This document shows, piece by piece, positions 2,540 to 17,672 of a stretch of 18,454 nt of DNA (its first letter is position 1; each line of letters begins with the position of its first letter). The DNA lies in assembly GCA_029974875.1 (NCBI GenBank), contig JARKQP010000863.1:1-18454 (forward strand), read 5' to 3'. Both the position numbers and the translations under genes were made by a program. This DNA is from Mobilitalea sp. Its GTDB lineage: Bacteria; Bacillota_A; Clostridia; Lachnospirales; Lachnospiraceae. The notes under the pieces are model-generated. The model was not told the DNA's origin and did no database searches. It saw nothing but the letters and a program-made list of their open reading frames with translations.

Positions 2540-3787
2540 ATGAAATCTGGAAAAAATACAGTAAATAATCTGGGATTTTCTCTGGTAGAGGTTATTGTAA
2601 GCATAGTCATACTGGCGCTTATTGCAGTTCCTCTTTTAAATTATTTTGTAAGCTCGGCGAGGTACAATGCCAGAGCAAGGAATGAGCAAAGGGCAGTTGC
2701 CTTAGCCCAAAGTATCATGGAGCAGTGCAAGGACCATTCCATTGAGGAGATAGCGAGGAGCTTTCATACCGTTACTGATTTTGATAAGAATTTTAGTATC
2801 GTAGCCCCCGATAAGCTTGACAACGACGAAAGCAGAGTGGGGGAGGTTAATGCTGCAGGTGCTTTGGTGGGTGCAAAGGGCGCCAGCGGAAGCTATGAGG
2901 GGAATACCTTTAAGAATTCTGCGAATGGAATGCTGTATTATTCCATGAGGGGAATTCAGGAGAATGGGAATTCTTATGATGCGTTAATTACGGTGGATAC
3001 CAATATTACTGCGGGAACTACCTACTATGACCTGAATGTTAATCAAACCTTATCTGAAATCAGGACAATTGAATCCCCCAGGAATGTGGTGGCGGTGGAA
3101 ACGACGCAGAAGGCCCATGCCGTTATTCCCATGAGTGACTTGAACCGGGAATACTGTAATAACCGGAATGCAAGCTCACCTGGCACCTGGCTGTATCCGG
3201 AAAGTGAGGAGGATATCCGGAATGCCCTGGTGCGGAATATGTACATTGATATTGACCCGGTCAGTGGCAGCAGCACCTCAGTTGAGGTAAAGATTTATTA
3301 TAAGTATTATTGTCCCGGAATCCCGGGCTGTCCTGCGGATGTGGCCGGTGCCATAGAGATTGACCCTCCCCTGTATCAGGAAACGGTTTCGCTGAATGAT
3401 CTGCAGAATATTTATCTGTTTTTCCAGAGGGATAGGAATGTAGAGCAGGTGATGCTGGATATCGATAGAGATGTAGCAGCTTATTTTTTACGAAAGATAA
3501 ATCTCTATCTGTTGTGCCAGGCAGAGCTGTCCTCAGATACGGTGCCGGCATATGATATCAACATTAATCCGGTGGATAATTCCAGGGATCAGCTTGAAAA
3601 GGTATACTCCAATGCGAATAAGGTTTCAGTCCTGGGAGCAGGAAACGATATCAAGGAAGCAGGCGGCTATATCCGGCGCTCCCCTGTTATTCGAATGATG
3701 AACATAAGGGTTGATATCTATAGAGAAGGCCGGCTGCTGGATCCGGATGCTTTATTTGCTACACTGACTTCAACAAAGGGAAGATAG
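2540..3787 (+). CDS. Minor prepilin, GspI/PilV-like, unusually long
   Basis: A 415-aa prepilin. A 12-residue leader ends in Gly and is followed by FSLVEVIVSIVILALIAVPL, a class III prepilin signal with the conserved Glu at +5. The ensuing helix (RNEQRAVALAQSIMEQCK) resembles GspI/PilV minor pilins. Those are usually only 120-200 aa, so the C-terminal ~300 residues are a large extra head with no domain I recognise. I chose the ATG at 2540 because AAGGGG (2525-2530) is well spaced for it; a TTG at 2534 in the same frame is too close to that Shine-Dalgarno. The gene lies 38 bp after pilO in the same operon. It should be processed by a prepilin peptidase encoded elsewhere and inserted into the tip-initiating pseudopilin complex (inference from T2SS/T4P). 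Confidence 0.8.
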   Translation: MKSGKNTVNNLGFSLVEVIVSIVILALIAVPLLNYFVSSARYNARARNEQRAVALAQSIMEQCKDHSIEEIARSFHTVTDFDKNFSIVAPDKLDNDESRVGEVNAAGALVGAKGASGSYEGNTFKNSANGMLYYSMRGIQENGNSYDALITVDTNITAGTTYYDLNVNQTLSEIRTIESPRNVVAVETTQKAHAVIPMSDLNREYCNNRNASSPGTWLYPESEEDIRNALVRNMYIDIDPVSGSSTSVEVKIYYKYYCPGIPGCPADVAGAIEIDPPLYQETVSLNDLQNIYLFFQRDRNVEQVMLDIDRDVAAYFLRKINLYLLCQAELSSDTVPAYDININPVDNSRDQLEKVYSNANKVSVLGAGNDIKEAGGYIRRSPVIRMMNIRVDIYREGRLLDPDALFATLTSTKGR

Positions 3788-4062
3788 CACTTGTGCGAAT
3801 CCATGAATTGAGCGGTGGAATTGAGCAGTAGAATTAAGAAATGAAATTGATCAGCGGAATTGAGCAGAAAATTAAGTAGTGAAATTAAGAAGTGGAATTA
3901 AGCGGTGAATTTAAGAAGTGAAATTAAGCAGTGGAATTAAGAGTGGAATTTAAGAAGTGAAATTAAGTAGCGGAATTAAGCAGAAAATTAAGTGACGAAA
4001 TTAAGCAGTGAAATTAAGTGGAAAATTAAGTAGTGAAATTTGCTTGTGATAGGAGGGAGACA
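3788..4062 (+). repeat. Tandem array of a 13-bp repeat between two prepilin genes
   Basis: From 3805 to 4035 the sequence reads as 18 consecutive head-to-tail units with consensus RAATTAAGNAGTG. Thirteen units are exactly 13 bp; units at 3857, 3934, 3973 and 4011 are 12 bp and the unit at 3946 is 14 bp. A 19th partial unit runs into 4036-4046. A higher-order duplication is visible: the block AGCGGAATTRAGCAGAAAAT occurs at 3853 and again at 3969, 116 bp apart. The strand is rich in A and G and poor in C, with frequent TAA and TGA. Because the period is not a multiple of three, no long frame survives, so it is not a protein repeat. It forms the leader directly in front of the 815-aa pilin gene. 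Confidence 0.95.
4051..4056 (+). promoter_or_regulatory. Ribosome binding site deciding the start of the 815-aa pilin
   Basis: AGGAGG lies 6 nt before the ATG at 4063. A GTG in the same frame at 4033 sits inside the last tandem repeat and has no Shine-Dalgarno, so the ATG is preferred. This places the prepilin leader at 10 residues. Confidence 0.8.
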
Positions 4063-6510
4063 ATGAGGCAGTTTGGAAAAAATAACAAGGGGTCAAACCT
4101 ATTACTTGTCATCATTGCCATACTCTTTATCGGAATCCTTGGCTCTTTAATTCTGGCTCTGACTATGACAAATATACGGATGAAACAGGTGGATTATCAG
4201 GCAAAGGAGAACTTTTACCAGACCGAGACGGTAATCAATGAATTGCAGGCGGGGCTGGAAGGGATCTCTTCCCAGTGTATGTATGAGGCCTATGACTATT
4301 TATTGCTTCATTACTCAGAAATCCTCCAGAATCCCAGCACCAGCTTAAAAGCAGAGTTTGACAGACACTATATAGAGAATCTGGTACCGGCTCTTTGCGG
4401 TTCATCGGTATCCTATGATCCCTTGGGCGGAACCTATTATTATCAGCCAAGTCGTTTGAAAAGCTTTCTGAATTCCAATCTGCAGCCAAAGAAGGATAGT
4501 ATTATTCTATATCCTGATACTCCGTATCTTGATCCGGCGAAGAATACTAATATCCTGGCAGTCAGTCTGGATACGGCGGACCCGGATAAGGTTAGCTCTG
4601 TCACCTTAAAGAATGTGAAGGTAAGCTTTGTCGACACCCAGGGCTTTGAGACCAGAATTACGACAGATATCAAGCTGGAAGTACCCAGCCTGAATTTTGA
4701 ATATGCCGGTATCTACCCCGAGTTTACAAAATACGCTATTATTGCCGACGAGCAGCTGCTGACCGAGGGTGGAACGGGCATGAGGATTGATGGAAATATT
4801 TATGCCGGTATCGGCGGAATTGAGGTTAATGCAACCAATGTTACGGTCCCTGATATTAATAATGCAGCCAATGGCTATAATCTTAAAATTACCGGTGATA
4901 CCTTGATTACAAGGGGAGATTTAACGGTGAAGGATGATGCCAAGCTCTTTATTGGAGACAGCGCAAACCTGAAAAAGGTCAGTATATGGGCGGAGAATAT
5001 TAAGACAACGGGTAATTCGGCAGGTGTGCAATCCTCCTACTTAAATATCAATGGAAATTGTATGGTATCCGATGATCTCATGCTGGGAGCGAAGCGAAGT
5101 GATGTTATCATCAGCGGAAGCTATTTTGGCTATAGCTATAGCAAAACAAATACAAAAATAGATGATAACAATAAGATAAAAACAGAAGTGAATTCCAATT
5201 ACAGCAGTGCGATTTTAATTAACGGAATCAATTCCTCCCTTAACATGATTGATGTGAAAAGCCTGATGCTTGCGGGAAGAGCCTTTATCTCAAGAAAAAA
5301 TGAGGCTGGAAAAACAGTGGTGGATGATATTATGACAGGAGAATCCATATCGGTGAAGAGCAATCAGCTGGCCTATCTGGTGCCCGATGAATATCTTCCC
5401 TGGCTGGGACATAATCCGGTGATGCGCTCAGAGGTGGATGCGCTGCCAAGCGGTGCGAAGACAGTGGATATCCCTGTGGTTCCGGGTACCATATCCGACC
5501 TGCTAACGGCTGCCCAGTTTGTAGAATATCATTATCTCATGGGTGGTACGGTGCCCATGGTATATTATTATCTGGAATTTAAGAACCAGGCCTGTGCCAA
5601 CCAATATTTCAGGGAGTATTACAGCCATGGGGAGAACCAGGCAAAAATTAAGGAGAATGCGGAGAGCTATCTGTACGGTGACGGCATAAGGCTGAGCGGA
5701 GCGCTTCTGTTGTCAGCCAATGCATTAAAAACCTCAGCCGATGGCCTGGTATTGACAGGCGGAGTCCTTGCCAACCCGGATCTTCCCCATGAAAGCCTTT
5801 TAAGGGATTCGATCCGTAGCGCAAAGGAATATAAATCAAGACAGTTATGTCTGGTTCCGGTATCGGCGGCAGGCAATGCCGGAGATTTCCGGCTGGATAA
5901 AGCAAGCAGTCCCTTATTCCAGACGATTATCAGCCAATATGATAATGGCACACCGGCAGTACCCGGGGATGATATGTCGGTCATTGAATGGGAAACACGG
6001 GATGACGGAGCTGCAGCGGTCAATGGCTTTGCAAAATACAATGGTAATTATTTTAAACGGGTTCCCATTGATATTAACAGGGATAATACCATAAATGATT
6101 TGGATTATTCTGTTTATATCATCCGCAATGACAGTAAAATCAATGCCAGTGATATCATTACAGCTACATCCGGCCCGGATTTGCAGAAAGGAATTATTAT
6201 TGCCACAGGGGATATAGATTTTGATAAAAGCTATAAGGGCTTAATTATTTCGGATAAAACTATCAAGCTGATGTCAAATGGCATATCCATAGGCTCCAGC
6301 CCAGAGATTGTTCAGGATATTTTTTCCTATGCATTGGAGAAAGAGACCTTGGCACCGGTGGAAGGCGGCTGGCTTGGACTGGATGCTAAGAGGTTCACCC
6401 ACTACTTTGCGGATTATTCAAAGGTGGACACCAATGAAGCGGAAAATATTGACCAGGTTGATATCTCCAGATATATTACCTATGAAAACTGGAAGAAGAA
6501 TGTGTATTAG
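4063..6510 (+). CDS. Giant GspK/PilX-like minor prepilin with beta-solenoid-like body and EF-hand-like loop
   Basis: An 815-aa protein from the ATG at 4063. The N-terminus MRQFGKNNKG|SNLLLVIIAILFIGIL resembles a prepilin signal followed by a hydrophobic helix, but position +5 is Leu instead of Glu. Loss of Glu5 is typical of GspK and PilX_N-type subunits, which sit at the tip. After the helix (KENFYQTETVINELQAG) comes a long extracellular body. Residues about 244-410 are dense in short alternating strands with Gly/Asn turns (GNIYAGIGGIEV, TLITRGDLTVKDDAKLFIG), suggesting a right-handed beta-helix; a similar stretch recurs near the C-terminus (KGIIIATGDIDFDKSYKGLI). Residues 670-681, DINRDNTINDLD, match an EF-hand/dockerin calcium loop (D670, N672, D674, T676, N678, D681). 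Typical GspK is about 300 aa, so this is greatly enlarged. The PilX/GspK assignment is an inference from the N-terminus and gene neighbourhood. Confidence 0.7.
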   Translation: MRQFGKNNKGSNLLLVIIAILFIGILGSLILALTMTNIRMKQVDYQAKENFYQTETVINELQAGLEGISSQCMYEAYDYLLLHYSEILQNPSTSLKAEFDRHYIENLVPALCGSSVSYDPLGGTYYYQPSRLKSFLNSNLQPKKDSIILYPDTPYLDPAKNTNILAVSLDTADPDKVSSVTLKNVKVSFVDTQGFETRITTDIKLEVPSLNFEYAGIYPEFTKYAIIADEQLLTEGGTGMRIDGNIYAGIGGIEVNATNVTVPDINNAANGYNLKITGDTLITRGDLTVKDDAKLFIGDSANLKKVSIWAENIKTTGNSAGVQSSYLNINGNCMVSDDLMLGAKRSDVIISGSYFGYSYSKTNTKIDDNNKIKTEVNSNYSSAILINGINSSLNMIDVKSLMLAGRAFISRKNEAGKTVVDDIMTGESISVKSNQLAYLVPDEYLPWLGHNPVMRSEVDALPSGAKTVDIPVVPGTISDLLTAAQFVEYHYLMGGTVPMVYYYLEFKNQACANQYFREYYSHGENQAKIKENAESYLYGDGIRLSGALLLSANALKTSADGLVLTGGVLANPDLPHESLLRDSIRSAKEYKSRQLCLVPVSAAGNAGDFRLDKASSPLFQTIISQYDNGTPAVPGDDMSVIEWETRDDGAAAVNGFAKYNGNYFKRVPIDINRDNTINDLDYSVYIIRNDSKINASDIITATSGPDLQKGIIIATGDIDFDKSYKGLIISDKTIKLMSNGISIGSSPEIVQDIFSYALEKETLAPVEGGWLGLDAKRFTHYFADYSKVDTNEAENIDQVDISRYITYENWKKNVY

Positions 6511-6525
6511 AAGAGGAGAAGGACT

Positions 6526-7047
6526 ATGAGGAATGATAAGGGTATGTCTTTGGCAGAAATCATTTTAGTCATAGCCATTCTTGCTATTTTTGCAGGCGGG
6601 GCAATTGGGGGTATGAGCTATATCCGGTATGGCAATGCCAAGACATGTGCGTCTGAAATCAATGCTGCCCTGGACAGGGTGAGGCTTGAGGCGATGAGCA
6701 GGGCGGAAAAACCCTTTCTGTACATTTACCAGTCGGGGGACTCCTATTATATGAAGGTAAGCACTGAGCCTGCAACGGAAGCCCTGCTGGATGCAACGGG
6801 AACCAGGCTGGGGAACAGGCAGCTCCGTCTTTTTTATGAAACAACGGTATCCGCTTCAAGCATAGAGATAGGAAACTTTGCCTCCGGGAGTTATATGCAG
6901 CTGGGCTTTGAGAAGGGCACCGGGGGCATATCAGCCAATCCGGCGGATTCCAGCTATTATAATAAGATCATGGTAGCGGACAGTGATGGAACCCCGCGGT
7001 ATACCATTACCTTAGTTAAGGCAACAGGAAAGCATTTTATCAGGTGA
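6526..7047 (+). CDS. Minor prepilin, GspH/FimU-like
   Basis: A 173-aa prepilin with a very short leader: MRNDKG|MSLAEIILVIAILAIFAGG, with Glu at +5. The helix continues into SEINAALDRVRLEAMSRAEK, followed by a beta-rich domain (FLYIYQSGDSYYMKV). This layout resembles GspH/FimU minor pilins, where the helix leads into a sequence like LRLARSEAI and a beta-sandwich. A Shine-Dalgarno (agaggagaagg) precedes the ATG, 15 bp after the previous stop. Length is normal for the family. It should be a core component of the pilus-initiating minor pilin complex together with the GspI-, GspJ- and GspK-like neighbours. Confidence 0.75.
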   Translation: MRNDKGMSLAEIILVIAILAIFAGGAIGGMSYIRYGNAKTCASEINAALDRVRLEAMSRAEKPFLYIYQSGDSYYMKVSTEPATEALLDATGTRLGNRQLRLFYETTVSASSIEIGNFASGSYMQLGFEKGTGGISANPADSSYYNKIMVADSDGTPRYTITLVKATGKHFIR

Positions 7048-7053
7048 AAAACG

Positions 7054-7644
7054 ATGGAACAGAGATGGAAACAGGTGGTAAAACTGAATAACCGGGGCTT
7101 AACGCTGGTGGAATTGATTTTGGTTATGGCTATTTCAGCCATTGTTATTGGGGCGATAACCATATTTATGTCTGCGGGCAGCCGCAGCTATAAAGCGGCC
7201 GAAAATGAGATTCTCCTCCAGACGGAAGCCCAGACTATTATGAATCAGATCAGGGAGTGCGTTTTAGAAGGAAATAATATCGAATATGATGCCGCCCTTG
7301 GAACTCTTTTTATCTATCATAGTGATGATAATCCTGCTACGACAGCGGATCCGATGGAAATCATATGGTTTAATGATGAGGATAAAAGGCTGTACCTTTA
7401 TAACCTGACCATAGGGGATAAGGGGGCTGTTGTTGCTGATATTACGGCCGGAGCAGCTTCAGAGGATAACCTGTTAGGGGAATATGTGGAGAGCTTTTCG
7501 GCGGATCCGGTAATGTTTACCTCCGGCAGGCCAGGGACATCCGGCAATACCCTGACGGTCACGGTCAGACTGGAATACAATGATAGGGAATTTTCTGTCT
7601 CAGAGGATATTAAGCTGAGAAACCGGATTGTTGATTTGCCATAG
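7054..7644 (+). CDS. Minor prepilin, GspJ/PilW-like
   Basis: A 196-aa prepilin. A 15-residue leader ending NNRG precedes LTLVELILVMAISAIVIGAI, with Glu at +5. It is followed by MSAGSRSYKAAENEILLQTEAQTIMNQIRE, which matches the GspJ/PilW pattern of a long helix carrying a LQ.....IM..I segment. The remainder is a beta-rich head. It starts 6 bp after the preceding stop; GGTG within that stop region is the only evident Shine-Dalgarno, so translation may be coupled to the GspH-like gene. It completes a set of four minor pilin types encoded in one operon. Confidence 0.75.
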   Translation: MEQRWKQVVKLNNRGLTLVELILVMAISAIVIGAITIFMSAGSRSYKAAENEILLQTEAQTIMNQIRECVLEGNNIEYDAALGTLFIYHSDDNPATTADPMEIIWFNDEDKRLYLYNLTIGDKGAVVADITAGAASEDNLLGEYVESFSADPVMFTSGRPGTSGNTLTVTVRLEYNDREFSVSEDIKLRNRIVDLP

Positions 7645-7714
7645 GATGGAACTGGTAAAGTAGTGGCATAGTCTGCTGGCAGCAGACAATTGTTGATTTA
7701 TCATAGGATGGAAC
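7628..7714 (+). repeat. Direct repeat flanking a stem-loop before the large secreted-protein gene
   Basis: Two 25-bp copies at 7628-7652 and 7690-7714 share 23 of 25 bases (they differ only at GC versus AT) with a 62-bp offset. The first copy spans the last codons and the stop of the GspJ-like gene (ttgttgatttgccatagg). The second ends immediately before the ribosome binding site of the next gene. This looks like a local duplication of the gene end. The DNA between the copies holds the inverted repeat at 7671-7687. Confidence 0.85.
7671..7687 (+). other. Perfect 7-bp stem-loop in the pilin/secreted-protein intergenic gap
   Basis: GTCTGCT-GGC-AGCAGAC forms a 7-bp stem with a 3-nt loop, followed by AATTGTTGATTTATC, which has only a weak U content. 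It could be an attenuator, an mRNA processing or stability element, or a poor terminator that lowers expression of the downstream 1346-aa protein relative to the pilins. No regulatory partner can be seen. Confidence 0.5.
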
Positions 7715-7729
7715 ATGGGAGGAATTTTC

Positions 7730-10700
7730 ATGAAGGGAAGACACTTAGGGAAGAAAATATTAGTGATAGCTTCATTTTTTCTTTTGATTGCCGCAAGTGC
7801 ATATGGAGGCTTTAGTCTGCTTGTGTCAGCGGAGGATGCGGCAGTCATCCCCGTGCCGGATAAGGATGGGGTGAGTGAGCTTGGCACCCGGAATAATCCA
7901 TTATTTATTTTGGAAATAGTCCCGAATAGAAGCTACGGGGAAGTGGGCTACTGGATATCAGGATGTGAGCCGGTGGACATGGAACAGCTTTCAATCAGCA
8001 ATCTTGCGTCTGAATATCAGGCTGGAGGCTTTGCTGTCTGCACTACGACAACAGAAAATAAGTATGTATTTGAAATAGACCCGGAGGAATTGGCCTCCGG
8101 CAAGGGCAATTGGACTAAGTCAGGGGAAGAGCGCGGCTATTATCAAAAGGTCACGGATGAAACAGGAACCATCAGCCAAAAGCAGGCCGGTTCCGAATTC
8201 ATTTATACCTATGAGGGGGCAGGAAAGGGTCAGTATAAGTGGATCCAAAACGATGATACTACTATGCCGACGGATCATACGGCAGATCAGGTATGGATGA
8301 CCATCGACCGTTACACACGTAATAAAATGATCTTTACCCATAAAAATACCTTCTTAAAGGAGGCAGTCGGTGTTCCCGAAGAGAAGCTGGCAGACTATCA
8401 GTCAGTGGTGATAACTGTTGACCCGACAGATCTGGCAAACCCGGATAATTTGGACTTAATTAAGAAGGCGGATGTGATATATATCAATGGCAAAGCCCCT
8501 GCTGTAGCGGGACTTCCCGAGATTTGGAAGAAATTCAATAAAGAAGGCGGGGAGCTGACGAATACCTCCACTAATTTTCAGGGCAGCAATGATTTTACCT
8601 GGGAAACAACCATGGCTATCTTTGACCGGACGGTTTCAAAAAATAGGGCGGTCATTATGATGGATGCTACCAATAGTTATCTTAGCCCAGCCTCTGAAAA
8701 TAATGCCCATAAGCTGTGCATTATGCTGCTGCAGATGGGGCCGGCGAACTTTAACCGCCTTTACATCAAGCCGGGCAAGATTAAAACAAAACAGGTGGGA
8801 GGAAAAACCGTAGCATACTATGTGGGGGCAGCTGGAAACCAGACGGTCACAGCCTGGAACAAGGATACCTTTTTAAGTAATAATGGCGGACTGGAGCTAA
8901 AAAATCCTGACATCATAATTAATAATACTACTGCAGGGGAGGGAGTATATACCTTTAGCGGCAGTCTGAGTCTATGGGAGTATCTAGGGACGAAGACTAT
9001 TACAGAGACAGGTGTAACCAGGGATGCCTTTGACTGGTATGAACATTATGACAGGTATGTCAAAGAGGACAGGGATGTGAATTCGGCGCGCCGCAGCAGT
9101 ATTTCGCCGGCGGAAGCCATATTTTCCATGCTGGACCAGGAGTTCCACTGGGCGGATAAGAATGAGCTGAATATACTGGAAATACAGCCCTATGACGACT
9201 TTATTTATGGAACCGGCGGGTGGGAAGTGCGATACCGTAAATTATTCCCGTACTTCATGGGAGCAGCAGGTGATATCCATGTTACTACCATGACGACCTA
9301 TGATTTTATTGGGAAAATTGAAGATATCAATGCCAGGTATGATATGATCATCATTGGTTTAAATACGGGATCCAAGAACATTAATCAGTATAGTGACGCT
9401 AATTTAAACGGAAAGGTTTATTTATCCATAGGGGATAAGGTATATAAGGAAACGGGCACTGCGAAGGAAGGAATCCGTTATTCCGGAAATGATATCACAC
9501 AAAAAAAGTTGGAAGAATTAAAGGATTTTATGCTGTCAGGCAGACCGGTCGTCTTGACCGGCGGCCGCAGTGACAATGCTGACAATTTTTATACGGATAC
9601 CACGCGAAAAAAAGTTTCCCTTAAGGTGGATAAAGCAACCTATCTGTATCGTTTGGCCGATGTAATCCGGCAGGAAGGCCTGAATGTATATACGCCGGAG
9701 CAGGAGCAGATACAGGAAGTGTACCGCTCCAATTTTAGGGATAAGATTTTTTATGAGAAACAGTTCAACTCCTATTTGTTACAGGAGAAAATATCTAATT
9801 CCGTCTGCAGCCTCGAGTTCGCAAATAAAAGTAATTCCGGCATGTATCCGGTTCCTTATAGTTATTCCTTAAAGGGGGATGGCAGCATTGAGGAGGCTTT
9901 CTATAATGATTCAAATACGCTGAAATACCGGTTCAAAATACTGGGAAGCGGAGCTAGTTATGCTGTAAAGCTATATATCGACAACAATGGTGACGGAAGG
10001 TATAATGGCTCGATTGATACGCCGACCGGTGCGAAGCAGGAAGGAATCAGCAATTTAAAGGTCAAGGATGACTCCAATAAATCTGTAGCTGTGAATGCAT
10101 TAAAACCAAATACCTGGTATACGCTGACAAGACATCTGGATGATACCTATCAGGGAATCATTCCCTGGAAATTGGAAGTGAACCAGACGGATAATACATC
10201 GCTGCGCTGCAGTGAGATTAATTATACGGTAATAAAAAAACGGGAAGAAGCCAAGGTGGAGATCAAGGTACTTCAGGTAGCCATTGATGCAGGGACAGGG
10301 AATGTGAGTAACAGCTTAAATATGCAGACGGATGATCGGTTCCAGCGTTATCTGCAATCTGTTGCGGAATATAAGGTGAATATTACCTGCATGACGAATC
10401 AACAGTTTCTGGCTAAATTTACCGTGGGCCATTATGATGATTTTCTGGAGGATTATGACATGCTGATCCTGGGATTCCGTGATTGCTGCAGCTATACGAA
10501 TAATCCGGCTGCCCATCAGGAAATCAAGGATTTTATTAACCAGGGAAAGAGTATTATCTTTAGCCATGATGTCATATGGGATAAGGATGCCGGAACCGAG
10601 CGCCATTATAATGCGGAGCTAAGAAAGATATTAAGCCAGGACCGTTATAATTTTGATGTGGGCAAGAAAAATTCGGACCAGAAAGAGCAATCCATTTACT

Positions 10701-11770
10701 ATAATGATACGTCAAATACAATGCAGAGAATTCCGATGCAGATTTATGCGAGTGGTATTAATTATAGTGATAGCTCCTATGATAAGTATTGGAAATTCTA
10801 TACGGATAACAGTAATAAACTGGTTTGGAGCAGTGATCCGGCAGACACCAACAATAGTCAAAAGGTATACAAGGACAGGAACTCTACCAACTATACAACA
10901 GGCTGGGAGACAACGCGGATATCCGTTGCAAATAAAGGCCAGATTACCCAATATCCGTTCCTTATAGGAGATACTATTCAAGTAGCAACAACTCATTTTC
11001 AATATTATCAGTTAGATTTAGAACAGGAAGACATGGTGGTTTGGTATAACCTGTCAGATAATCAAAGCAAACTGATGGGAGGGACAAATAACGGCTTTTA
11101 TTCCTCCCGTGAAAATGATTCCCGGAATAATTATTATATTTACAATAAGGGAAATATAACCTATACGGGCTTGGGACACAGGAATAATCTTACAAATGAT
11201 GAGATAAAATTATTTATCAATACGATGATCAGCTCCTATCGTGCGGGATTTGCCCAACCAAGGATCGTGGTTACCAATGAGGACGTATATACCGCCGGGA
11301 CAGGGGAACAATTTTTGTTTATCAGCTCAGATACAGATTCCGTAGATGTCCAGGATGCGAGTGTGGTAAAAACGGTTAGGTTCAGAGTGGAAGAGGATAG
11401 TGTGGTTAATACCAGTGACAGGAAATATTATGTATCGTACCATGCATGGATACCGGATCCTGCTGACAGCACGAAAACCATCCGGGTGGAAATGAATCCG
11501 ACTGCCGCAGAGGCTTCTACTGATGTCCTGGCCACAAAAAATCTGAATACTGGGACGGTTTGCAGCGTTACAGCGGGGAAGGGCACGAATTTAAACAGTG
11601 ATGACGAATTTTCGATTCAGGTGCCATTAAAGTACTTCCAGGGAAGAAGTCAGCTGGTAGTGGAGATGGAGCTTATGTGCAATGAAATTGACGAGGATGG
11701 GAATGAAATTGCATTAAAAAGTATATCCAAACTAAATATAGTGGCAAATCTTCTGTTTGATCTTGACTAA
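7730..11770 (+). CDS. Large secreted protein with repeated Rossmann/amidotransferase-like modules (DUF5057-like), last gene of pilus operon
   Basis: A 1346-aa protein. The ATG at 7730 has GGAGG at 7718-7722; an in-frame ATG at 7715 precedes this site and has none. A Sec signal peptide is clear: KGRHLGKKILVIASFFLLIAA, with likely cleavage after LLVSA, about residue 37. The mature part starts with FILEIVPNRSYGEVGYW (about 59-75), a motif I associate from memory with DUF5057. Related modules begin with NILEIQPYDDF (about 480) and KVLQVAID (about 846). The latter two share YDMIIIGL / YDMLILGF followed by LKDFMLSGRPVVL / IKDFINQGKSIIF, the pattern of a ThuA/class I amidotransferase-like fold. No catalytic Cys-His-Glu set is evident. 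A DNNGDGRYNGSID loop at 751-763 resembles a calcium site. There is no LPXTG or C-terminal membrane anchor. Position after the minor pilins suggests a pilus-tip or pilus-dependent exported factor, analogous to PilY1 (inference). Confidence 0.7.
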   Translation: MKGRHLGKKILVIASFFLLIAASAYGGFSLLVSAEDAAVIPVPDKDGVSELGTRNNPLFILEIVPNRSYGEVGYWISGCEPVDMEQLSISNLASEYQAGGFAVCTTTTENKYVFEIDPEELASGKGNWTKSGEERGYYQKVTDETGTISQKQAGSEFIYTYEGAGKGQYKWIQNDDTTMPTDHTADQVWMTIDRYTRNKMIFTHKNTFLKEAVGVPEEKLADYQSVVITVDPTDLANPDNLDLIKKADVIYINGKAPAVAGLPEIWKKFNKEGGELTNTSTNFQGSNDFTWETTMAIFDRTVSKNRAVIMMDATNSYLSPASENNAHKLCIMLLQMGPANFNRLYIKPGKIKTKQVGGKTVAYYVGAAGNQTVTAWNKDTFLSNNGGLELKNPDIIINNTTAGEGVYTFSGSLSLWEYLGTKTITETGVTRDAFDWYEHYDRYVKEDRDVNSARRSSISPAEAIFSMLDQEFHWADKNELNILEIQPYDDFIYGTGGWEVRYRKLFPYFMGAAGDIHVTTMTTYDFIGKIEDINARYDMIIIGLNTGSKNINQYSDANLNGKVYLSIGDKVYKETGTAKEGIRYSGNDITQKKLEELKDFMLSGRPVVLTGGRSDNADNFYTDTTRKKVSLKVDKATYLYRLADVIRQEGLNVYTPEQEQIQEVYRSNFRDKIFYEKQFNSYLLQEKISNSVCSLEFANKSNSGMYPVPYSYSLKGDGSIEEAFYNDSNTLKYRFKILGSGASYAVKLYIDNNGDGRYNGSIDTPTGAKQEGISNLKVKDDSNKSVAVNALKPNTWYTLTRHLDDTYQGIIPWKLEVNQTDNTSLRCSEINYTVIKKREEAKVEIKVLQVAIDAGTGNVSNSLNMQTDDRFQRYLQSVAEYKVNITCMTNQQFLAKFTVGHYDDFLEDYDMLILGFRDCCSYTNNPAAHQEIKDFINQGKSIIFSHDVIWDKDAGTERHYNAELRKILSQDRYNFDVGKKNSDQKEQSIYYNDTSNTMQRIPMQIYASGINYSDSSYDKYWKFYTDNSNKLVWSSDPADTNNSQKVYKDRNSTNYTTGWETTRISVANKGQITQYPFLIGDTIQVATTHFQYYQLDLEQEDMVVWYNLSDNQSKLMGGTNNGFYSSRENDSRNNYYIYNKGNITYTGLGHRNNLTNDEIKLFINTMISSYRAGFAQPRIVVTNEDVYTAGTGEQFLFISSDTDSVDVQDASVVKTVRFRVEEDSVVNTSDRKYYVSYHAWIPDPADSTKTIRVEMNPTAAEASTDVLATKNLNTGTVCSVTAGKGTNLNSDDEFSIQVPLKYFQGRSQLVVEMELMCNEIDEDGNEIALKSISKLNIVANLLFDLD

Positions 11771-12089: not shown

Positions 12090-12638
12090 TTATAGCTCCA
12101 GTTCTGAAAAGTCGATGCATAGATCATTGTAAATGCTCACCTTAATCTTATCAGAGAATGTATAAAGTTGTGGAATGAAGTTTTTGTCGGTAAAGTCATA
12201 AACTGTAATCGCCTGTTTCTGCGGATTTACAATCCAATATTCACGGACACCTGCTGCCTGATATTTAACTGACTTCAACAGATAATCATGATTTGAAGTG
12301 CTGGGGGAAGTAATTTCAATAATCCAATCAGGAGTACCGAAGCAGCCCCTTTCTTTAATAATATCAGGATTGCATATAACGCTGATATCAGGAATGTAGC
12401 ATTCACTTTCATTGCCATTAAGAAATACATCAAAGGGAGCCGGAAATACCTCACACTTCCCTTTGTTTGCTTTAATAAAGCTGTCAATCTTCACAACCAG
12501 TTCTTTTGATATGAGTTGGTGTGTTCTGGAGGGCGAAGCTTGGTAGTAGATCTGTCCATCAATCAGCTCTGCCCTGGTTCCCTCCGGCAGATTGTCAATA
12601 TCGTCGATGGTATAAACTGGTTCCCTTGGTAGTGGCAT
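12090..12638 (-). CDS. Uma2-family protein (DUF820, PD-(D/E)XK endonuclease fold)
   Basis: A 182-aa protein of typical Uma2 length. It opens with YTIDDIDNLPEGTRAELIDGQIY, the usual family entry, followed by ASPSRTHQLISKEL. The nuclease-like core is visible: CYIPDISVI (Asp of the PD motif, near residue 83), then WIIEITSPST (Glu near 107, the E of E-X-K type sites), a Lys in YLLKSVKYQAAGVREYWIV, and the closing VNPQKQAITVYDF strand. A Shine-Dalgarno (aaaggaaagga) precedes the ATG at 12638. Uma2 proteins are widespread, often in multiple copies; cellular function is poorly established, with DNA nuclease activity proposed from the fold. It stands alone here, convergent with the pilus operon and separated from the ABC operon by 202 bp. 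Confidence 0.85.
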   Translation of the reverse strand: MPLPREPVYTIDDIDNLPEGTRAELIDGQIYYQASPSRTHQLISKELVVKIDSFIKANKGKCEVFPAPFDVFLNGNESECYIPDISVICNPDIIKERGCFGTPDWIIEITSPSTSNHDYLLKSVKYQAAGVREYWIVNPQKQAITVYDFTDKNFIPQLYTFSDKIKVSIYNDLCIDFSELEL

Positions 12639-12840
12639 AGTAACACGTCCTTTCCTTTAAAGTATTAGTTAATTGGTCAGAGCTATTCAACGTTCAGCAC
12701 TATTACCTGTTTTTATAATTATACTATAACATATTCGGCTCAGCTCTTCCACTTCATTTCACAAGACCTTGTAAGGATAACCGTCCTTCCGGGGCAGCCA
12801 ACCGGAAAACCCAACAAACGAAAGCAGCAGGGCCTTCCCC
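12639..12840 (-). promoter_or_regulatory. Uma2 upstream region and 3' end of ABC operon
   Basis: No gene is seen. On the - strand, TATAAT (12718-12723) and an overlapping TATAGT (12723-12728) lie in an AT-rich stretch about 80-90 bp before the Uma2 start; no good -35 is present, so the promoter is tentative. Between 12790 and 12820 TTCCGG and CCGGAA could pair around a 9-nt loop, but no U-tract follows, so a terminator for the ABC genes is not evident. Confidence 0.3.
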
Positions 12841-14721
12841 CTACGCCGTCTTCTCAAACTGTGAATTATACAGGTTCGCATAGAAGCCGCCCGTTGCAAG
12901 GAGCTCTTCATGGCTGCCCTGTTCCACGATATCACCGTTGTTCATGACGAGAATTAAATCTGCATCACGGATCGTAGACAGACGGTGGGCTATGATAAAG
13001 CTGGTTCTTCCCTTCATCAGGGAGTCCATTGCCTTCTGGATTAGCAGCTCAGTCCTGGTATCGACGGAGCTGGTGGCTTCATCCAGGATCAGGATCTTAG
13101 GGTCGGCCAGGATGGCGCGGGCGATGGTGAGCAGCTGCTTCTGGCCCTGGGATACATTGCTGGCCTCCTCGTTGAGCACCATGTTATAGCCATCCGGAAG
13201 GGTGGAGATAAAATGGTGGACATGGGCGGCCTTTGCAGCCCTCATTACCTCCTCGTCAGTGGCATTTAGCTGGCTGTAGCGGATATTCTCCAGGATGGAT
13301 CCGTTAAATAGCCAGGTGTCCTGGAGGACCATGCCAAACATCTTGCGTAAGTCACTGCGGTTAAAGTCCTGGATATTGTGGCCGTCAATGAGGATCTGTC
13401 CGCTGTTGATGTCATAGAATCTCATCAGCAGCTTTACAATCGTTGTTTTACCGGCACCGGTAGGTCCTACGATGGCAATTTTCTGGCCCTTATAAACCTT
13501 GGCGTTAAAATTATTGATAATGATCCTGTCCGGGTTGTAGCCGAAATGGACGTTCTTAAATTCCACATTTCCATTCAAGCCCTGGATGGATACCGGGTTT
13601 TCTGCTGTCTGCACTTCTTCCTCTGCATCTAAGAATTCGAATACCCTCTCAGCCGCAGCCGCAGCCTGCTGGAACATGTTTGCTACCTGCATCAGCTGGT
13701 TGATGGGCTGTGTGAAGCTTCGGATATATTGGAAGAAGGACTGGATTTGTCCAATCTTAATCTTACCCTTGATTACAAGGTAGCCGCCAAGGATGGCTAC
13801 GCCTACATAACCGATATTACCTACGAAGGACATGATCGGCATCATAAGGCCCGATAAAAATTGGGACTTCCAGGCGGATTCATAAAGCTTTTCATTCTTT
13901 TCATTAAATTCCTCAAAGGATTCCTCTTCCTTGTTGTAGGCCTTAATGATCGTATGGCCGCCGTAAACCTCTTCTACCTGGCCATTCACATGTCCCAGGT
14001 ATTCCTGCTGCTGCTTGAAATATTTCTGGGATTTCTTGATAACCTGGCTTACCATGAGGACGGAAACCGGTAAAATCAAAAGTGCCAGAAGGGTCATATA
14101 GACATTGATCCTCAGCATCATGATGAGGACACCGACCACGGATACGGAAGAGGTGATCAGCTGCGTCAAGCTTTGGTTTAAGCTTTGGTTCAGGGTATCA
14201 ACGTCATTTGTAATCCGGGACAGGATCTCACCGTGGGAATGGGTGTCAAAGAAGTTCATCGGCATACGGTGGATCTTTTCCGAGATATCCTTACGGAACT
14301 TATAGCTTACCTTCATGGAAATGCCGGATAATATCCAGCCCATGACAAAGGAGAACACGGAGCTGACGGCATAGATAATGATCAGGGTAAGTAATATCTT
14401 CCCGAGGGCGGTGAAATCAATGCCCTTTCCACCCCGGATTTTGTCTAGCAGGCCTTCTGCTATTTCCGTAGTCGCATCACCCATGATGGTCGGGCCTATA
14501 ATGGAAAATATGGTGCTGCCCACAGCAAAGATGAAGGCTATAAAAAATCCGATCTTATATTTGGAAAGAACCTTGACCAGTTTTACCATGGTTCCCTTGA
14601 AATCCTTTGCCTTTTCCCCGGGCATCATTCCCGGAGGGCCGCCAAACCCGGGACCCATCCTTCTCCTTCCGGGAGCAGGCTTCGTTGTTACCGGTTGGTT
14701 GTTGTTTTCTTCTCTGCTCAT
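12841..14721 (-). CDS. ABC half-exporter with canonical Walker B and H-loop (second subunit of heterodimer)
   Basis: A 626-aa type IV (exporter) ABC protein with fused membrane and ATPase domains. A Pro/Gly/Met-rich cytoplasmic N-tail (residues 1-40, GPGFGGPPGMM) precedes six transmembrane helices (about 55-345). The nucleotide-binding domain has Walker A GPTGAGKTT at 419-427, signature NVSQGQ at 522-527 (a variant of LSGGQ), Walker B ILDE with D547 and E548, and H-loop His579 (IIAHRLST). The ATG at 14721 overlaps the upstream stop as ATGA and has AGGAGG nine bases before it; an upstream in-frame start at 14778 lies inside the previous gene and is rejected. The protein pairs with the adjacent degenerate half-transporter, as in BmrCD or TM287/288-like exporters. 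The substrate is unknown; drugs, lipids or peptides are possible. Confidence 0.93.
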   Translation of the reverse strand: MSREENNNQPVTTKPAPGRRRMGPGFGGPPGMMPGEKAKDFKGTMVKLVKVLSKYKIGFFIAFIFAVGSTIFSIIGPTIMGDATTEIAEGLLDKIRGGKGIDFTALGKILLTLIIIYAVSSVFSFVMGWILSGISMKVSYKFRKDISEKIHRMPMNFFDTHSHGEILSRITNDVDTLNQSLNQSLTQLITSSVSVVGVLIMMLRINVYMTLLALLILPVSVLMVSQVIKKSQKYFKQQQEYLGHVNGQVEEVYGGHTIIKAYNKEEESFEEFNEKNEKLYESAWKSQFLSGLMMPIMSFVGNIGYVGVAILGGYLVIKGKIKIGQIQSFFQYIRSFTQPINQLMQVANMFQQAAAAAERVFEFLDAEEEVQTAENPVSIQGLNGNVEFKNVHFGYNPDRIIINNFNAKVYKGQKIAIVGPTGAGKTTIVKLLMRFYDINSGQILIDGHNIQDFNRSDLRKMFGMVLQDTWLFNGSILENIRYSQLNATDEEVMRAAKAAHVHHFISTLPDGYNMVLNEEASNVSQGQKQLLTIARAILADPKILILDEATSSVDTRTELLIQKAMDSLMKGRTSFIIAHRLSTIRDADLILVMNNGDIVEQGSHEELLATGGFYANLYNSQFEKTA

Positions 14722-16958
14722 TGTTCCAGCTCCTCCTTTGATAATTGGGATGATGCAATCTGCTGATATACCTCGCAATCCCGGAGTAATTCCCTATGGG
14801 TTCCTTTGCCGACTATTTTACCGTCATCCAGGACCAGGATCTGCTCCGCGTTCATGATGGTGCTGATACGCTGGGCAACGATCAGGAGAGTACTGTCGGA
14901 AAGCTCTTCCTTCAGGGTCTTGCGCAGGGTTGCATCGGTCTTATAATCCAGTGCGGAAAAGCTGTCGTCAAAGATATAAATTTCAGGATCCTTTGCAATT
15001 GCCCTGGCGATGGACAGACGCTGCTTTTGTCCGCCGGATACGTTGGTGCCTCCCTCGGAGATCGGGGCGCCATAGCCCTCCGGCTTATTGTCGATAAACT
15101 CCTCTGCCTGTGCAATCCGGGCAGCCTTTTTCATGAGCACGTCATCCAGGCCTGAATTGCTGAATTTAATGTTGGATTCAATGGTGCCGCTGAACAGGAC
15201 TCCCTTTTGCGGGACTAAACCGATCCTATTCCTTAAATCCTTCTGGGATAGCCTGGTGATATCGGCGCCGTCCAGCAAAATACTTCCGGCGGTGGCATCA
15301 TAAAATCTTGGTATCAGGTTGATCAGGGTAGATTTACCGCTGCCGGTACTTCCGATAACGGCCGTTGTCTCACCGGGCTTTGCTACAAAGCTGATGTCTG
15401 ACAGCACATCCTCGTCAGCACCCGGATAACGAAAACAGACATTGCGAAATTCCAGGATGCCTTTCTGTGAGGAGAAGGCTGCTACCGGATTTTCAGGATC
15501 CAGGATGCTGATATCTGTGGAGAGCACCTCATCAATACGGTTTGCAGCAACGGTGGCTCTTGGCAGCATGATGGAGATCATGGTCAGCATCAGGAAGGAC
15601 ATAATAATCTGCATCGTATACTGGATGAAGGCCATCATGTCACCAACCTGGAGCGTACCGTCCTCGATACCGTGGGCGCCAACCCAGAGGATCAGGAGGG
15701 AAATAAGGTTCATGATGATCATCAGCATCGGCATCATGAAGGTCATGACACGGGATACGAATAAGGAGTTTTTGGCAAGATCCATATTGGCCTTGTCAAA
15801 ACGCTTTTCTTCATGGTCTACGGTACTGAAAGCACGGATGACCGGAAGACCTGTGAGGATTTCACGGGCAACTAAATTGATCCGGTCGACCAGCTTTTGC
15901 ATAATCTTGAATTTTGGCATTGCTATCACAAACAGGGATCCAATGAGAAGGAATAAGGCGCCCACACCGATTGCCAGAACCCAGGACATGGAGGTATCCG
16001 TCTGGAGGACCTTATAGATTCCGCCAAGAGCCAGGATCGGGGAATAGATTACGATACGGATCAGCATTACGATCAGCATCTGCACCTGTTGGATATCATT
16101 GGTGCTTCTTGTAATTAAGGAAGCGGTGGAGAACTGGTCCATCTCCTTATGGGAGAAGGAAACTACCTTCCGGAATACATTGCTGCGCAAATCGCGTCCC
16201 ATCCGGGCCGCTACCCTGGAAGCGATCAGGGTTACCAGGATGGAGGCAACCATTCCCAGCAGGGCGAAACCAAGCATCTTCAGGCCTACGACAATGATGT
16301 AATTAATCTGCATCTGATCCACGTCCACACCGATTGCCTGGTATTCGGCCTTGATGTAAGCGGAGGCAGAGGAAACCAGCATCGTATCCGACATGGCGCT
16401 GAATTTTTCCCTCAGGGTATCGGAAAAGGCTGCCTGGTTCTCGGCAGGCAGCAGGGGCAGGATTGCGAATATATCCGAAGAGCCCTGCTTTAGCGCGTCG
16501 GGAAGATTTGCAAGGATCTGCTGCTGTATCTGGACGGAGGTCTCTTCGGTGCCTTCCAGCAGATAAACTATGGTGGAAGGAAGCGCCAGGGAGTCTGCCA
16601 CAAGCTCTGTATCCATGCCGTCAAAGAGGTACAATTCCTCGGACTGGAGCAGAGGGTATTTCTTTTCATAATCGGACCATTGCTCCCCGCTGTAATCCTC
16701 CTTTGACATGAGAGTAAAGTGGGGAAGGGCAATGTCCTTTTCTTCCTGTGTCATAAAGATGGTAAGCCTGTCAAGCTCCGTTTTGCGGAGCACCTCCGGT
16801 ACGGAGGTGGCGATACCGTTTCTCATAATTCCAATATTGACAATCTCGGAGGTATAAGTAGGTAGGGACAAATCAGTATAAGCCTGCAGGATTAACAGGA
16901 GGACAACCAGTATAATCGCTGCAGTTGATTTTTTCAAAAATTTAAGTAGCTTAAGCAT
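14718..16958 (-). CDS. ABC half-exporter with degenerate nucleotide site and large extracellular insert
   Basis: A 746-aa ABC exporter half. TM1 (about 12-30) is followed by an insert of about 180 residues (about 45-225) before TM2, then the remaining helices and an ATPase domain. Walker A is GSTGSGKST at 536-544 and the signature is canonical, NVSGGQ at 639-644. However, Walker B carries Asp665 where the catalytic Glu is expected (IFDDSFSALD), and the H-loop carries Gln696 instead of His (IVAQRIST). These changes are characteristic of the non-hydrolytic site in heterodimeric exporters. The signature of this chain would complete the competent site of its partner. An extracellular domain between TM1 and TM2 also occurs in BmrD-type proteins. 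The start codon lies 23 bp after the MarR stop, with GAAAGGAA as Shine-Dalgarno. Confidence 0.93.
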   Translation of the reverse strand: MLKLLKFLKKSTAAIILVVLLLILQAYTDLSLPTYTSEIVNIGIMRNGIATSVPEVLRKTELDRLTIFMTQEEKDIALPHFTLMSKEDYSGEQWSDYEKKYPLLQSEELYLFDGMDTELVADSLALPSTIVYLLEGTEETSVQIQQQILANLPDALKQGSSDIFAILPLLPAENQAAFSDTLREKFSAMSDTMLVSSASAYIKAEYQAIGVDVDQMQINYIIVVGLKMLGFALLGMVASILVTLIASRVAARMGRDLRSNVFRKVVSFSHKEMDQFSTASLITRSTNDIQQVQMLIVMLIRIVIYSPILALGGIYKVLQTDTSMSWVLAIGVGALFLLIGSLFVIAMPKFKIMQKLVDRINLVAREILTGLPVIRAFSTVDHEEKRFDKANMDLAKNSLFVSRVMTFMMPMLMIIMNLISLLILWVGAHGIEDGTLQVGDMMAFIQYTMQIIMSFLMLTMISIMLPRATVAANRIDEVLSTDISILDPENPVAAFSSQKGILEFRNVCFRYPGADEDVLSDISFVAKPGETTAVIGSTGSGKSTLINLIPRFYDATAGSILLDGADITRLSQKDLRNRIGLVPQKGVLFSGTIESNIKFSNSGLDDVLMKKAARIAQAEEFIDNKPEGYGAPISEGGTNVSGGQKQRLSIARAIAKDPEIYIFDDSFSALDYKTDATLRKTLKEELSDSTLLIVAQRISTIMNAEQILVLDDGKIVGKGTHRELLRDCEVYQQIASSQLSKEELEQ

Positions 16959-16981
16959 AAAAGTTCCTTTCTTAGCTTATA

Positions 16982-17416
16982 TTATAATTCAAAATTGCGT
17001 AAATTTTCTATCATTTTATTGGTCAGGACTAATATTACGTTCATCTCCTCCTTGGAAAAATCCTTAAAGAGTGCTCCGTAAAGACTCTTCATCAGCTGCT
17101 CGCTTTGGGTGGCAACCTCCCTGCCCTCCGGGGTCAGATATACCCTCATGATCCTTTTGTCGGCTTCGTCCACCTGGCGGTAGACAAAATGCTTGGCTTC
17201 AAGGGTGTTCAGCATTCCGGTAATCGTAGACGGCTTCACGTAGGTCATTGTGCCCAACTCCTTTTGGGAAATACCCTCATGTCCTTTAATCAGGGATAAT
17301 AATTTTGGCTGGCCGGGATGCAGGTTCTGGTTAATGGATTTGTGGTAGGATAACAGGTGGAAGGATTTATGGATCTCTAACAGATTCTTGGTAATTTGTT
17401 TGATTTCTTCCGGCAT
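16982..17416 (-). CDS. MarR-family transcriptional regulator
   Basis: A 144-aa winged helix-turn-helix protein of normal MarR length. The core is visible: LHPGQPKLLSLIKGHEGISQKELGTMTYVKPSTITGMLNTLEAKHFV, with the recognition helix around residues 64-77. The wing DEADKRIMRVYLTPEGRE follows, matching the DxRD-type wing and LTxxG motif of the family. N- and C-terminal helices would form the dimer interface. It is the first gene of an operon with the two ABC exporter halves, a common arrangement in which the regulator represses its own operon until a ligand (often the transported compound) binds. The ATG at 17416 follows AAAGGAGGTGAT, an almost full-length anti-16S match, at a slightly long spacing. 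Confidence 0.92.
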   Translation of the reverse strand: MPEEIKQITKNLLEIHKSFHLLSYHKSINQNLHPGQPKLLSLIKGHEGISQKELGTMTYVKPSTITGMLNTLEAKHFVYRQVDEADKRIMRVYLTPEGREVATQSEQLMKSLYGALFKDFSKEEMNVILVLTNKMIENLRNFEL

Positions 17417-17465
17417 TTCTTTGATATCACCTCCTTTGCAGTAAGGAACGCTCCCAGTAAGAATA

Positions 17466-17491
17466 AAATTACTTAGGAGCCTAACTAAATT
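17466..17491. promoter_or_regulatory. Candidate MarR operator (imperfect palindrome)
   Basis: TTAGG-AG-CCTAA (17473-17484) is the core of a longer dyad centred at 17478/17479. Ten of 13 pairs match across the 26 bp. It starts two bases downstream of the -10 box of the marR promoter, within the transcribed leader, a typical site for autorepression by MarR proteins. Assignment to this regulator is inferred from position and symmetry. Confidence 0.5.
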
Positions 17492-17493
17492 AC

Positions 17494-17521
17494 ATTATAG
17501 CATATGAACGTCCTCCGTCAA
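17494..17521 (-). promoter_or_regulatory. Sigma-A type promoter of the marR-ABC operon
   Basis: On the - strand TTGACG (17516-17521) and TATAAT (17494-17499) are separated by 16 bp. The -10 is preceded by TGC, giving an extended -10. This is the best promoter match in the window and lies about 78 bp upstream of the marR start codon. Confidence 0.8.
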
Positions 17522-17566
17522 TATACAGAATAATTAAAATTTAAAGGCGAGACACTCTTGCTTTGT

Positions 17567-17588
17567 AAAAATTGCATATTGACATGCA
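17567..17588 (-). terminator. Terminator of the ABC-2 permease transcript
   Basis: On the - strand TGCAT-GTCAAT-ATGCA is followed by ATTTTT. The 5-bp stem is short and AT-containing, but it sits directly after the longer hairpin at 17594-17639, downstream of the permease stop and upstream of the marR promoter. Confidence 0.4.
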
Positions 17589-17593
17589 CAAGG

Positions 17594-17639
17594 AATGCGC
17601 CTTGGACTTAGTCTGTCAAAGACCATTTCAAGGCGCATT
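17594..17639. other. Long 11-bp perfect stem-loop with nested hairpin
   Basis: AATGCGCCTTG pairs perfectly with CAAGGCGCATT across a 24-nt loop. The loop itself contains GTCT-GTCAA-AGAC, able to form a small inner hairpin. It lies 34 bp downstream of the permease stop. No U-tract follows immediately on either strand. It may protect the mRNA 3' end, contribute to termination, or be a copy of a dispersed repeat. Confidence 0.55.
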
Positions 17640-17672
17640 ATTAGATCAGGAATGACGGGGCGGTAAGGGTTC

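Follow-up and report, generated by a model that had tools for sequence, protein, structure and literature searches.

PilY1 of type IV pili is known for its C-terminal beta-propeller (PF05567) and for a calcium-binding loop of the form Dx(D/N)xDGxxD, and the complexes formed by minor pilins are capped by their K component. In the available text of one study, PilY1 is described as priming pilus assembly as well as adhering, and four complexes were modelled in which an added strand joins PilX and PilY1 (PMC13190605). In the accessible part of another paper, a model of M. xanthus PilY1.3 places its eight C-terminal residues, LQNVYELP, as a strand on PilX3 (PMC11046646). Monoderms lack PilC/PilY1 according to the portion available of a paper on S. 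sanguinis pili (PMC9934059), and a review, as far as its available text goes, gives the late diderm components as missing there (PMC6916266). The role of a separate tip protein in Gram-positive pili has been thought unfilled. Here we describe a minor-pilin operon of a Mobilitalea species (Lachnospiraceae) in which a large secreted protein of the Pfam family DUF5057 may take this role.

Organization of the minor-pilin operon

The window, i.e. the whole stretch of 18,454 nucleotides that was analysed, is cut before pilB, and all features described below lie on its + strand. The operon runs from pilM(N) and pilO through I-K-H-J to the gene for the DUF5057 protein. Its first gene is pilM (positions 1–1782, the 5′ end lying outside the window; PF11104: 54.5 bits, cut-off 27), probably fused to pilN, although the PilN match of its product (PF05137: 18.5 bits) was below the cut-off of 22.8. 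It is followed by a gene in the pilO/gspM position (1779–2501), whose matches (GspM) were all sub-threshold and whose position is kept across loci. The four prepilin genes encode I (PilV/GspI/ComGE type, 415 aa, 2540–3787; N_methyl and ComGE/PilV/GspI matches, Glu5 present), K (PilX/GspK type, 815 aa, 4063–6510; Glu5 absent), H (GspH/FimU/ComGD type, 173 aa, 6526–7047) and J (PilW/GspJ/ComGF type, 196 aa, 7054–7644), the last two assigned by family matches and by their N-termini. Next comes the secreted protein of 1346 aa (7730–11770). The sequence-only reading had claimed four consecutive prepilin genes with a large protein directly after them, and an enlargement of two of the minor pilins. 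Indeed, the open reading frames are as claimed, with I and K as the enlarged pilins, and the same order is found in the loci of relatives. Since it recurs, the gene arrangement is more than chance.

For the typing of the pilins, selected relatives were scanned singly against family models. I matched the PilV and ComGE models in 23 of 24 relatives, H matched GspH in 14/20 and J matched ComGF in 17/20 (normal-size J only, 28 J proteins of more than 400 aa being left out), in all three cases with scores below the equivalog cut-offs. PilX_N was matched by only three of the 35 K relatives (best E value: 0.0015). A prepilin N-terminus with Gly-1 and a hydrophobic helix was present in 99/99 selected rows; Glu5 was found in 64/64 rows of I, H and J and in 0/35 of K. 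Judged from these alignments, K is typed better by its position and its missing Glu5 than by a family model. The alignments hold parts of the sequences gathered (rows: A1, 32; A2, 35; A3, 96; A4, 49; A5, 24; A6, 20; A7, 20), and A6 excludes the enlarged J proteins.

Linkage of the DUF5057 family to type IV pilus loci

To follow the linkage of the large protein to pilus genes, we used a set of Lachnospiraceae-type loci (80 of 216 relatives kept). J lay directly upstream of the large protein in 71/80 loci, the other nine being cut close upstream, and the full I-K-H-J order was found in 60/80. In a sample of 200 genomes, 44 bore a DUF5057 gene, and in 40 of these 44 the K gene shared both contig and strand with it. 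Besides PilM and the PilO-position gene present in the window, the type IVa pilus genes of relatives' loci included PilB, 12–15 kb upstream of all 15 DUF5057 genes examined in this respect (14 genomes), and PilT, adjoining PilB in 14/15. In Paenibacillus-type genomes the operon is rearranged, and the DUF5057 gene was beside pilB in 20/20 loci examined (loci were obtained for 20 of 38 positive genomes). Since the gene linkage holds even with a rearranged operon, we conclude that the family belongs to type IV pilus loci as a dedicated component, both in Lachnospiraceae and in Paenibacillus-type Bacilli. Occurrence of the family mostly away from pilus genes had been named beforehand as a result that would refute the tip-complex reading; the counts with K, with upstream J and with pilB all point the other way. 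Weak DUF5057 matches, near or below the cut-off, do lie away from pili (L107–L109).

The linkage is not reciprocal: 22 of the 64 K-bearing genomes in the 200-genome sample had no PF16480 match. We looked at the loci of 17 of these 22, the other five having weak K matches. One locus, L085, combined a strong K with no large protein after J. Six replacement proteins were found after J, two of which (L081 and L082) could not be connected with the family by profile search at E values up to 10; both were grouped with it by position, L082 also by its tail, whereas the L081 tail departs from the motif described below.

The earlier claim of a large protein in the PilY1 position and unrelated to it stands at the sequence level, because the 1346-aa protein had no match to the PilY1 propeller (PF05567) at E values up to 1; PilY1 homology was rejected on this result. 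A search for PF05567 in 17 genomes (14 Lachnospiraceae-type, 3 Paenibacillus-type) gave no match either, but the control genomes also gave none. The restriction of the claim to Clostridia was too narrow, since the linked family extends to Paenibacillus-type Bacilli.

Domains and C-terminal tail of the DUF5057 protein

The protein matched PF16480 with 170.6 bits (cut-off: 27.9), the DUF5057 domain covering residues 587–947 (9488–10570; E value: 8.6e-50). By eye, its N-terminus is hydrophobic, includes VSA-ED and is of the Sec type rather than a prepilin N-terminus, which agrees with the proposed Sec secretion. A ThuA-like (class I glutamine-amidotransferase-like) domain is predicted at about residues 842–1174 (10253–11251); the resemblance to ThuA-like proteins (PF06283) is one of fold only, without a Pfam match at E values up to 1, and with such a fold the protein may be an enzyme. 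The predicted C-terminal Ig-like domain (about residues 1175–1341; 11252–11752) had tied structural matches that indicate no particular relative. Comparison of internal repeats with hhalign gave 93.7% for D2-D3, 69.5% for D1-D2 and 4.3% for D1-D3, so that a ThuA-like copy within the first 480 residues is unproven. No match was obtained in sequence searches of solved structures with the protein or its profile, nor in a comparison with PHROGs. Relatives are about 800–2850 aa long across loci and carry F5/8 type C, pAdhesive_15 and Big_2 modules. The motif D.[DN].DG, at residues 751–756 of the window protein, was present at differing places in 98/120 Lachnospiraceae-type proteins (14/120 after shuffling), and in only 3/116 Bacilli-type and 2/36 short-type proteins.

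The protein ends in LFDLD (residues 1342–1346; 11753–11767), which we propose as its pilus-docking end. A tail of the [L/M]-F-x-L-x type terminated 115 of 120 homologues, though the preceding domain varies, and it was kept in 36/36 shorter relatives without the DUF5057 domain. Position −4 was F, Y or L and position −2 was L or M in 80/80 complete ends, and no other columns of the C-terminal domain are as conserved as these two. The fixed C-terminus, which went unmentioned in the sequence-only reading, is the most telling feature of the protein. Bacilli have a different fixed end, DRY-like, with Tyr as the last residue in 106/118; therefore, no single docking rule covers both clades. Among the other ORFs of 150 aa or more at these loci (1171), one ended in the strict motif; this ORF reads as a chemoreceptor and was taken as a chance match. 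The tail was also considered as a general export signal and rejected: a degenerate codon pattern, loose enough to accept Phe in place of Leu and TGG in place of a stop, had 205 matches in 14 genomes against 321 for the reversed pattern, a crude control. The fixed residues suggest a protein mounted on the pilus tip; in Lachnospiraceae, however, the proteins have an Ig-like domain in common just before the tail, which could instead have a role in the folding of that domain.

In K, an AlphaFold2 model predicts a beta-helix at about residues 219–786, whose structural match is the fold of the tapirin C-terminal domain (Caldicellulosiruptor); K itself is a prepilin and shows no sequence match, none being found between tapirin chains and the K profile at E values up to 10. 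Searched by sequence against solved structures, K alone gave no match and its profile gave seven weak rows (E value 0.02 or worse: pilin N-termini, FliL and antifreeze proteins). Cellulose binding is a trait of tapirin. A tapirin-like K together with carbohydrate-type modules suggests a possible means of holding fibre or mucus.

Proposed function and comparison with known systems

In our view, the DUF5057 protein probably (roughly 60%) acts as a tip adhesin that is not itself a pilin, seated on I-K-H-J of a retractable type IV pilus, equivalent to PilY1 and built from unrelated domains; we infer its tip position, docking partner and ligand. The operon would make a retractable type IV pilus, with I-K-H-J as the conserved priming and tip complex. 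As in the models of PilY1 on PilX, the fixed last residues would join a minor pilin by strand addition; K, which caps such complexes, is the likeliest partner. The variable modules (ThuA-like and Ig-like here; F5/8 type C, pAdhesive_15 and Big_2 in relatives) and the K beta-helix would face outward and hold polysaccharide, e.g. plant fibre or mucus, to which PilT-driven retraction would pull the cell.

Other explanations are less probable. The predicted ThuA-like fold and the carbohydrate-type modules of relatives would also suit a protein that only shares expression with the pilus and works beside it, e.g. in fibre contact: a polysaccharide-binding protein or an enzyme of the ordinary kind, secreted or bound to the wall. 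We regard this as unlikely, since the linkage survives the complete operon rearrangement in Paenibacillus-type genomes, the C-terminus is more conserved than the preceding domain, which is unexpected for a free enzyme, and no LPXTG-like anchor was seen by eye at the C-terminal ends inspected. Somewhat less likely still is a factor acting at the pilus base, which primes I-K-H-J or opposes PilT and whose tail docks only during assembly. The fixed tail and the operon position would fit such a factor, and PilY1 itself is said, in the available text, to prime assembly as well as to adhere (PMC13190605), but the body is very large, modular, of widely differing length and equipped with adhesive domains in relatives, and 22 of 64 K-bearing genomes do without it. 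Least of all do we expect a substrate of a type II secretion-like pseudopilus with the tail as its export signal: although I-K-H-J sets also cap pseudopili and the tail is strictly C-terminal, as some export signals are, it was not seen to be shared by other proteins in the codon-pattern search (with its crude control) or the ORF comparison, and PilT beside PilB fits a retractable pilus.

Beyond this locus, the chances are about even that a separate class of non-pilin tip adhesins, not related to PilY1, exists in Bacillota. Such adhesins would dock by a tail specific to the clade (LFxLx type in Lachnospiraceae, DRY-like in Bacilli), and their polysaccharide-binding modules, open to exchange, would be displayed next to a tapirin-like K. 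DUF5057 is named in no paper we found in the open-licence literature, and reports outside it are possible; a dedicated non-pilin partner in Lachnospiraceae and Paenibacillus-type bacteria would give this Pfam family a function. It becomes testable whether a short C-terminal strand is a common mount for a large adhesin on a minor-pilin tip. If Bacillota do have such adhesins, mounting a large tip protein by its tail would be a principle common to type IV pili in general and reached by convergence, and the Lachnospiraceae of the gut, where they are a main family, would hold fibre or mucus by retractable adhesive tips.

Among known systems, the Kil (Tad) pili of Myxococcus share the trait of exchangeable large tip modules, but these are parts of Tad minor pilins, and the accessible text describes no separate non-pilin protein (PMC12075869). 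Streptococcus sanguinis PilA/PilB/PilC likewise give a Gram-positive pilus large adhesive modules at its proposed tip; as far as the available portion of that paper shows, these adhesins are modular pilins, whereas DUF5057 loci have a full I-K-H-J set and a separate non-pilin protein (PMC9934059). The closest system is PilY1/PilC with FimU-PilV-PilW-PilX of diderm type IVa pili, where a large secreted non-pilin is likewise encoded with four minor pilins. The DUF5057 protein differs in having predicted ThuA-like and Ig-like domains and no beta-propeller, its hosts are monoderm, and the gene order and tail sequence are different. Nevertheless, both proteins, as far as the PilY1/PilC texts available go, combine a constant C-terminal end with variable outer modules.

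Genomic linkage of the large protein to pilus genes

The type IV pilus operon ends, on the + strand of the window, with pilM (probably fused to pilN), a gene in the pilO position, four prepilin genes (I, 2540-3787; K, 4063-6510; H, 6526-7047; J, 7054-7644) and the gene for a 1346-aa secreted protein (7730-11770), which is a member of the Pfam family DUF5057 (PF16480). Towards its end (1627-1760), the PilM-PilN protein has low-complexity Gln/Pro/Glu-rich repeats with 18-bp units, and an array of a 13-bp unit with a 39-bp higher period and ~6 copies is located between the I and K genes (3805-4040). Downstream, the - strand (12090-18452) encodes a Uma2 nuclease-family protein, an ABC exporter pair, a MarR regulator and an ABC-2 permease, which look unrelated to the pilus.

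The nearest relatives of the large protein, including those from Anaerocolumna species and one Clostridiales genome, share 60-64% identity with it along its whole length. A single scan of species genomes yielded 216 relatives, 80 of which were kept for locus analysis; gene order was determined by iteratively searching the window proteins against all ORFs of these 80 loci. J was the nearest matched gene upstream of the large-protein gene in 71 loci. In the other nine, either fewer than 300 bases of upstream DNA were present (seven loci) or there was a 5'-open ORF of 376 or 401 aa (L050, L053) that may represent the last part of an enlarged J. The upstream order was K-H-J in 63, I-K-H-J in 60 and PilM-PilO-I-K-H-J in 49 of the 80 loci, and the shorter orders stop where the available locus DNA ends, save in L015, where the iterative search of the locus ORFs did not find H. 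The gap between J and the large-protein gene (median 27 bases) exceeded 300 bases in seven loci, and in six of them it contained a small gene resembling CYTH proteins; the one of these six scanned against Pfam CYTH scored 21.8 bits (cut-off 23.2). A small CYTH (triphosphatase-type)-like gene was seen at this position in L043, L044, L046, L048, L049, L051 and L102; the Pfam CYTH match was below the cut-off in L044, and none was found in L102.

Among 200 sampled genomes of the family to which G008 belongs (Roseburia faecis, the source of L018), DUF5057 was present in 44 and K in 64. K occurred in 42 of the 44 DUF5057 genomes, and in 40 the two were on the same contig and strand, as read by eye. 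Among the other four (G055, G023, G038 and G110), G055 has H-J-DUF5057 at a contig end, and in G023 J is followed by a small gene and by the beginning of a DUF5057 gene, likewise at a contig end. G038 carries a 652-aa DUF5057 piece (L099, 8879-10837) directly after pilB-, pilT- and pilC-like genes, with I-K-H-J absent from this locus, owing to a deletion or an assembly join. Three of the 44 genomes contain weak DUF5057 matches that do not exceed the cut-off (L107, L108, L109), and no pilus gene was recognized near these. Fourteen genomes from which named loci come contain 15 DUF5057 genes, and for each of these PilB is encoded on the same contig and strand at a distance of 12-15 kb upstream; PilT adjoins this PilB in 14/15 (exception: G013).

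Eight genomes possess a strong K (E under 1e-80) without PF16480. In six, another large protein of 802 to 2847 aa follows J; L085 has no large protein there, and L087 is cut. The DUF5057 family profile still matches four of the six replacement proteins, along most of its length in L083 and mainly in the N-terminal module in L084, L086 and L088, and gives no match in L081 and L082. Such a protein was absent after J in nine of ten more distant K loci (nine genomes); the tenth is cut.

In a phylum sample, five of 299 genomes had DUF5057, three of them of a Paenibacillus type represented by L104, whose protein is 97% identical to that of Paenibacillus sp. FSL R10-2791. Here I, J and K lie on one side and pilB-pilT-pilC-major pilin-pilD-pilM-pilO on the other, with the DUF5057 gene between the two blocks on the opposite strand (gene names rest on similarity to L104 and on inspection by eye). 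Within the family of this type, 38 of 118 sampled genomes had the domain; pilB adjoins the DUF5057 gene in 18 of the 20 loci obtained, and likewise in the other two in longer reads. Since the linkage to pilus genes was kept despite this operon rearrangement, it is strong evidence of a shared function.

Minor pilins

Among selected relatives, Gly-1 was conserved in all 99 pilin rows; Glu5 was found in 64/64 rows of I, H and J and in 0/35 of K. PMC9934059 describes the same pattern for H-I-J-K tip complexes. Family models back the typing of I, H and J, and PilX_N matched only 3 of 35 K relatives. J exceeds 400 aa in 28/71 loci, among them L009, L012 and L028, and a J-like pilin reaches 1396 aa in one distant cluster (L097, 10070-14260); which minor pilin is enlarged varies from lineage to lineage. 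Genome G080 has two consecutive minor pilin sets (L110, L111), each followed by a separate large protein, of 1778 and 2803 aa.

For K (4063-6510), a tapirin-like beta-helix is predicted. Tapirin-type proteins of Caldicellulosiruptor bind cellulose, and the predicted fold would connect enlarged GspK-type pilins with them.

The C-terminal tail

C-termini are complete in the window protein, which ends in LFDLD, and in the proteins of 79 loci; all 80 have Phe/Tyr/Leu at -4 and Leu/Met at -2, and the strict end [FY][DNEKS]L[DNEK] occurs in 62/80, compared with 1/1171 other ORFs. In a 96-row alignment, no other column of the C-terminal domain was as conserved as -4 and -2 (0.17 and 0.23 bits; mean 2.83). 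Among the homologues listed as matches, window and close relatives included, 115/120 terminate in [LMIVFY][FYLM]x[LM]x. Five of the six replacement proteins have a tail of this kind; L081 departs from it. With the L086 protein as query, 36 matches were obtained; every one ends in LFxLx, and the two scanned had no Pfam match. Of 118 Bacilli-type proteins obtained as homology matches, 106 have Tyr as the last residue, mostly in DRY, EKY, DKY or WLY, and none has the Lachnospiraceae-type tail.

A degenerate codon pattern searched in 14 genomes, with a crude control, provided no indication of the tail being a general export signal. The tail may still serve the folding of the preceding Ig-like domain. 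Docking on K, together with a tip position and a ligand for the DUF5057 protein, is what we infer. The protein itself, whose extreme C-terminus is nearly fixed, is a dedicated component of pilus loci of two classes.

Comparison with PilY1

In Myxococcus xanthus models, PilX3 gains a strand from the last eight residues of PilY1.3, LQNVYELP, and C-terminal strand addition is likewise modelled for PilY1.1 (PMC11046646); a later study has such strand addition in four modelled complexes (PMC13190605). The window end VANLLFDLD may parallel LQNVYELP in mode and not necessarily by homology. The DUF5057 protein stands outside the PilY1 family; the PilY1 propeller was not found in the 1346-aa protein. 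If our reading is right, it would nevertheless work like PilY1.
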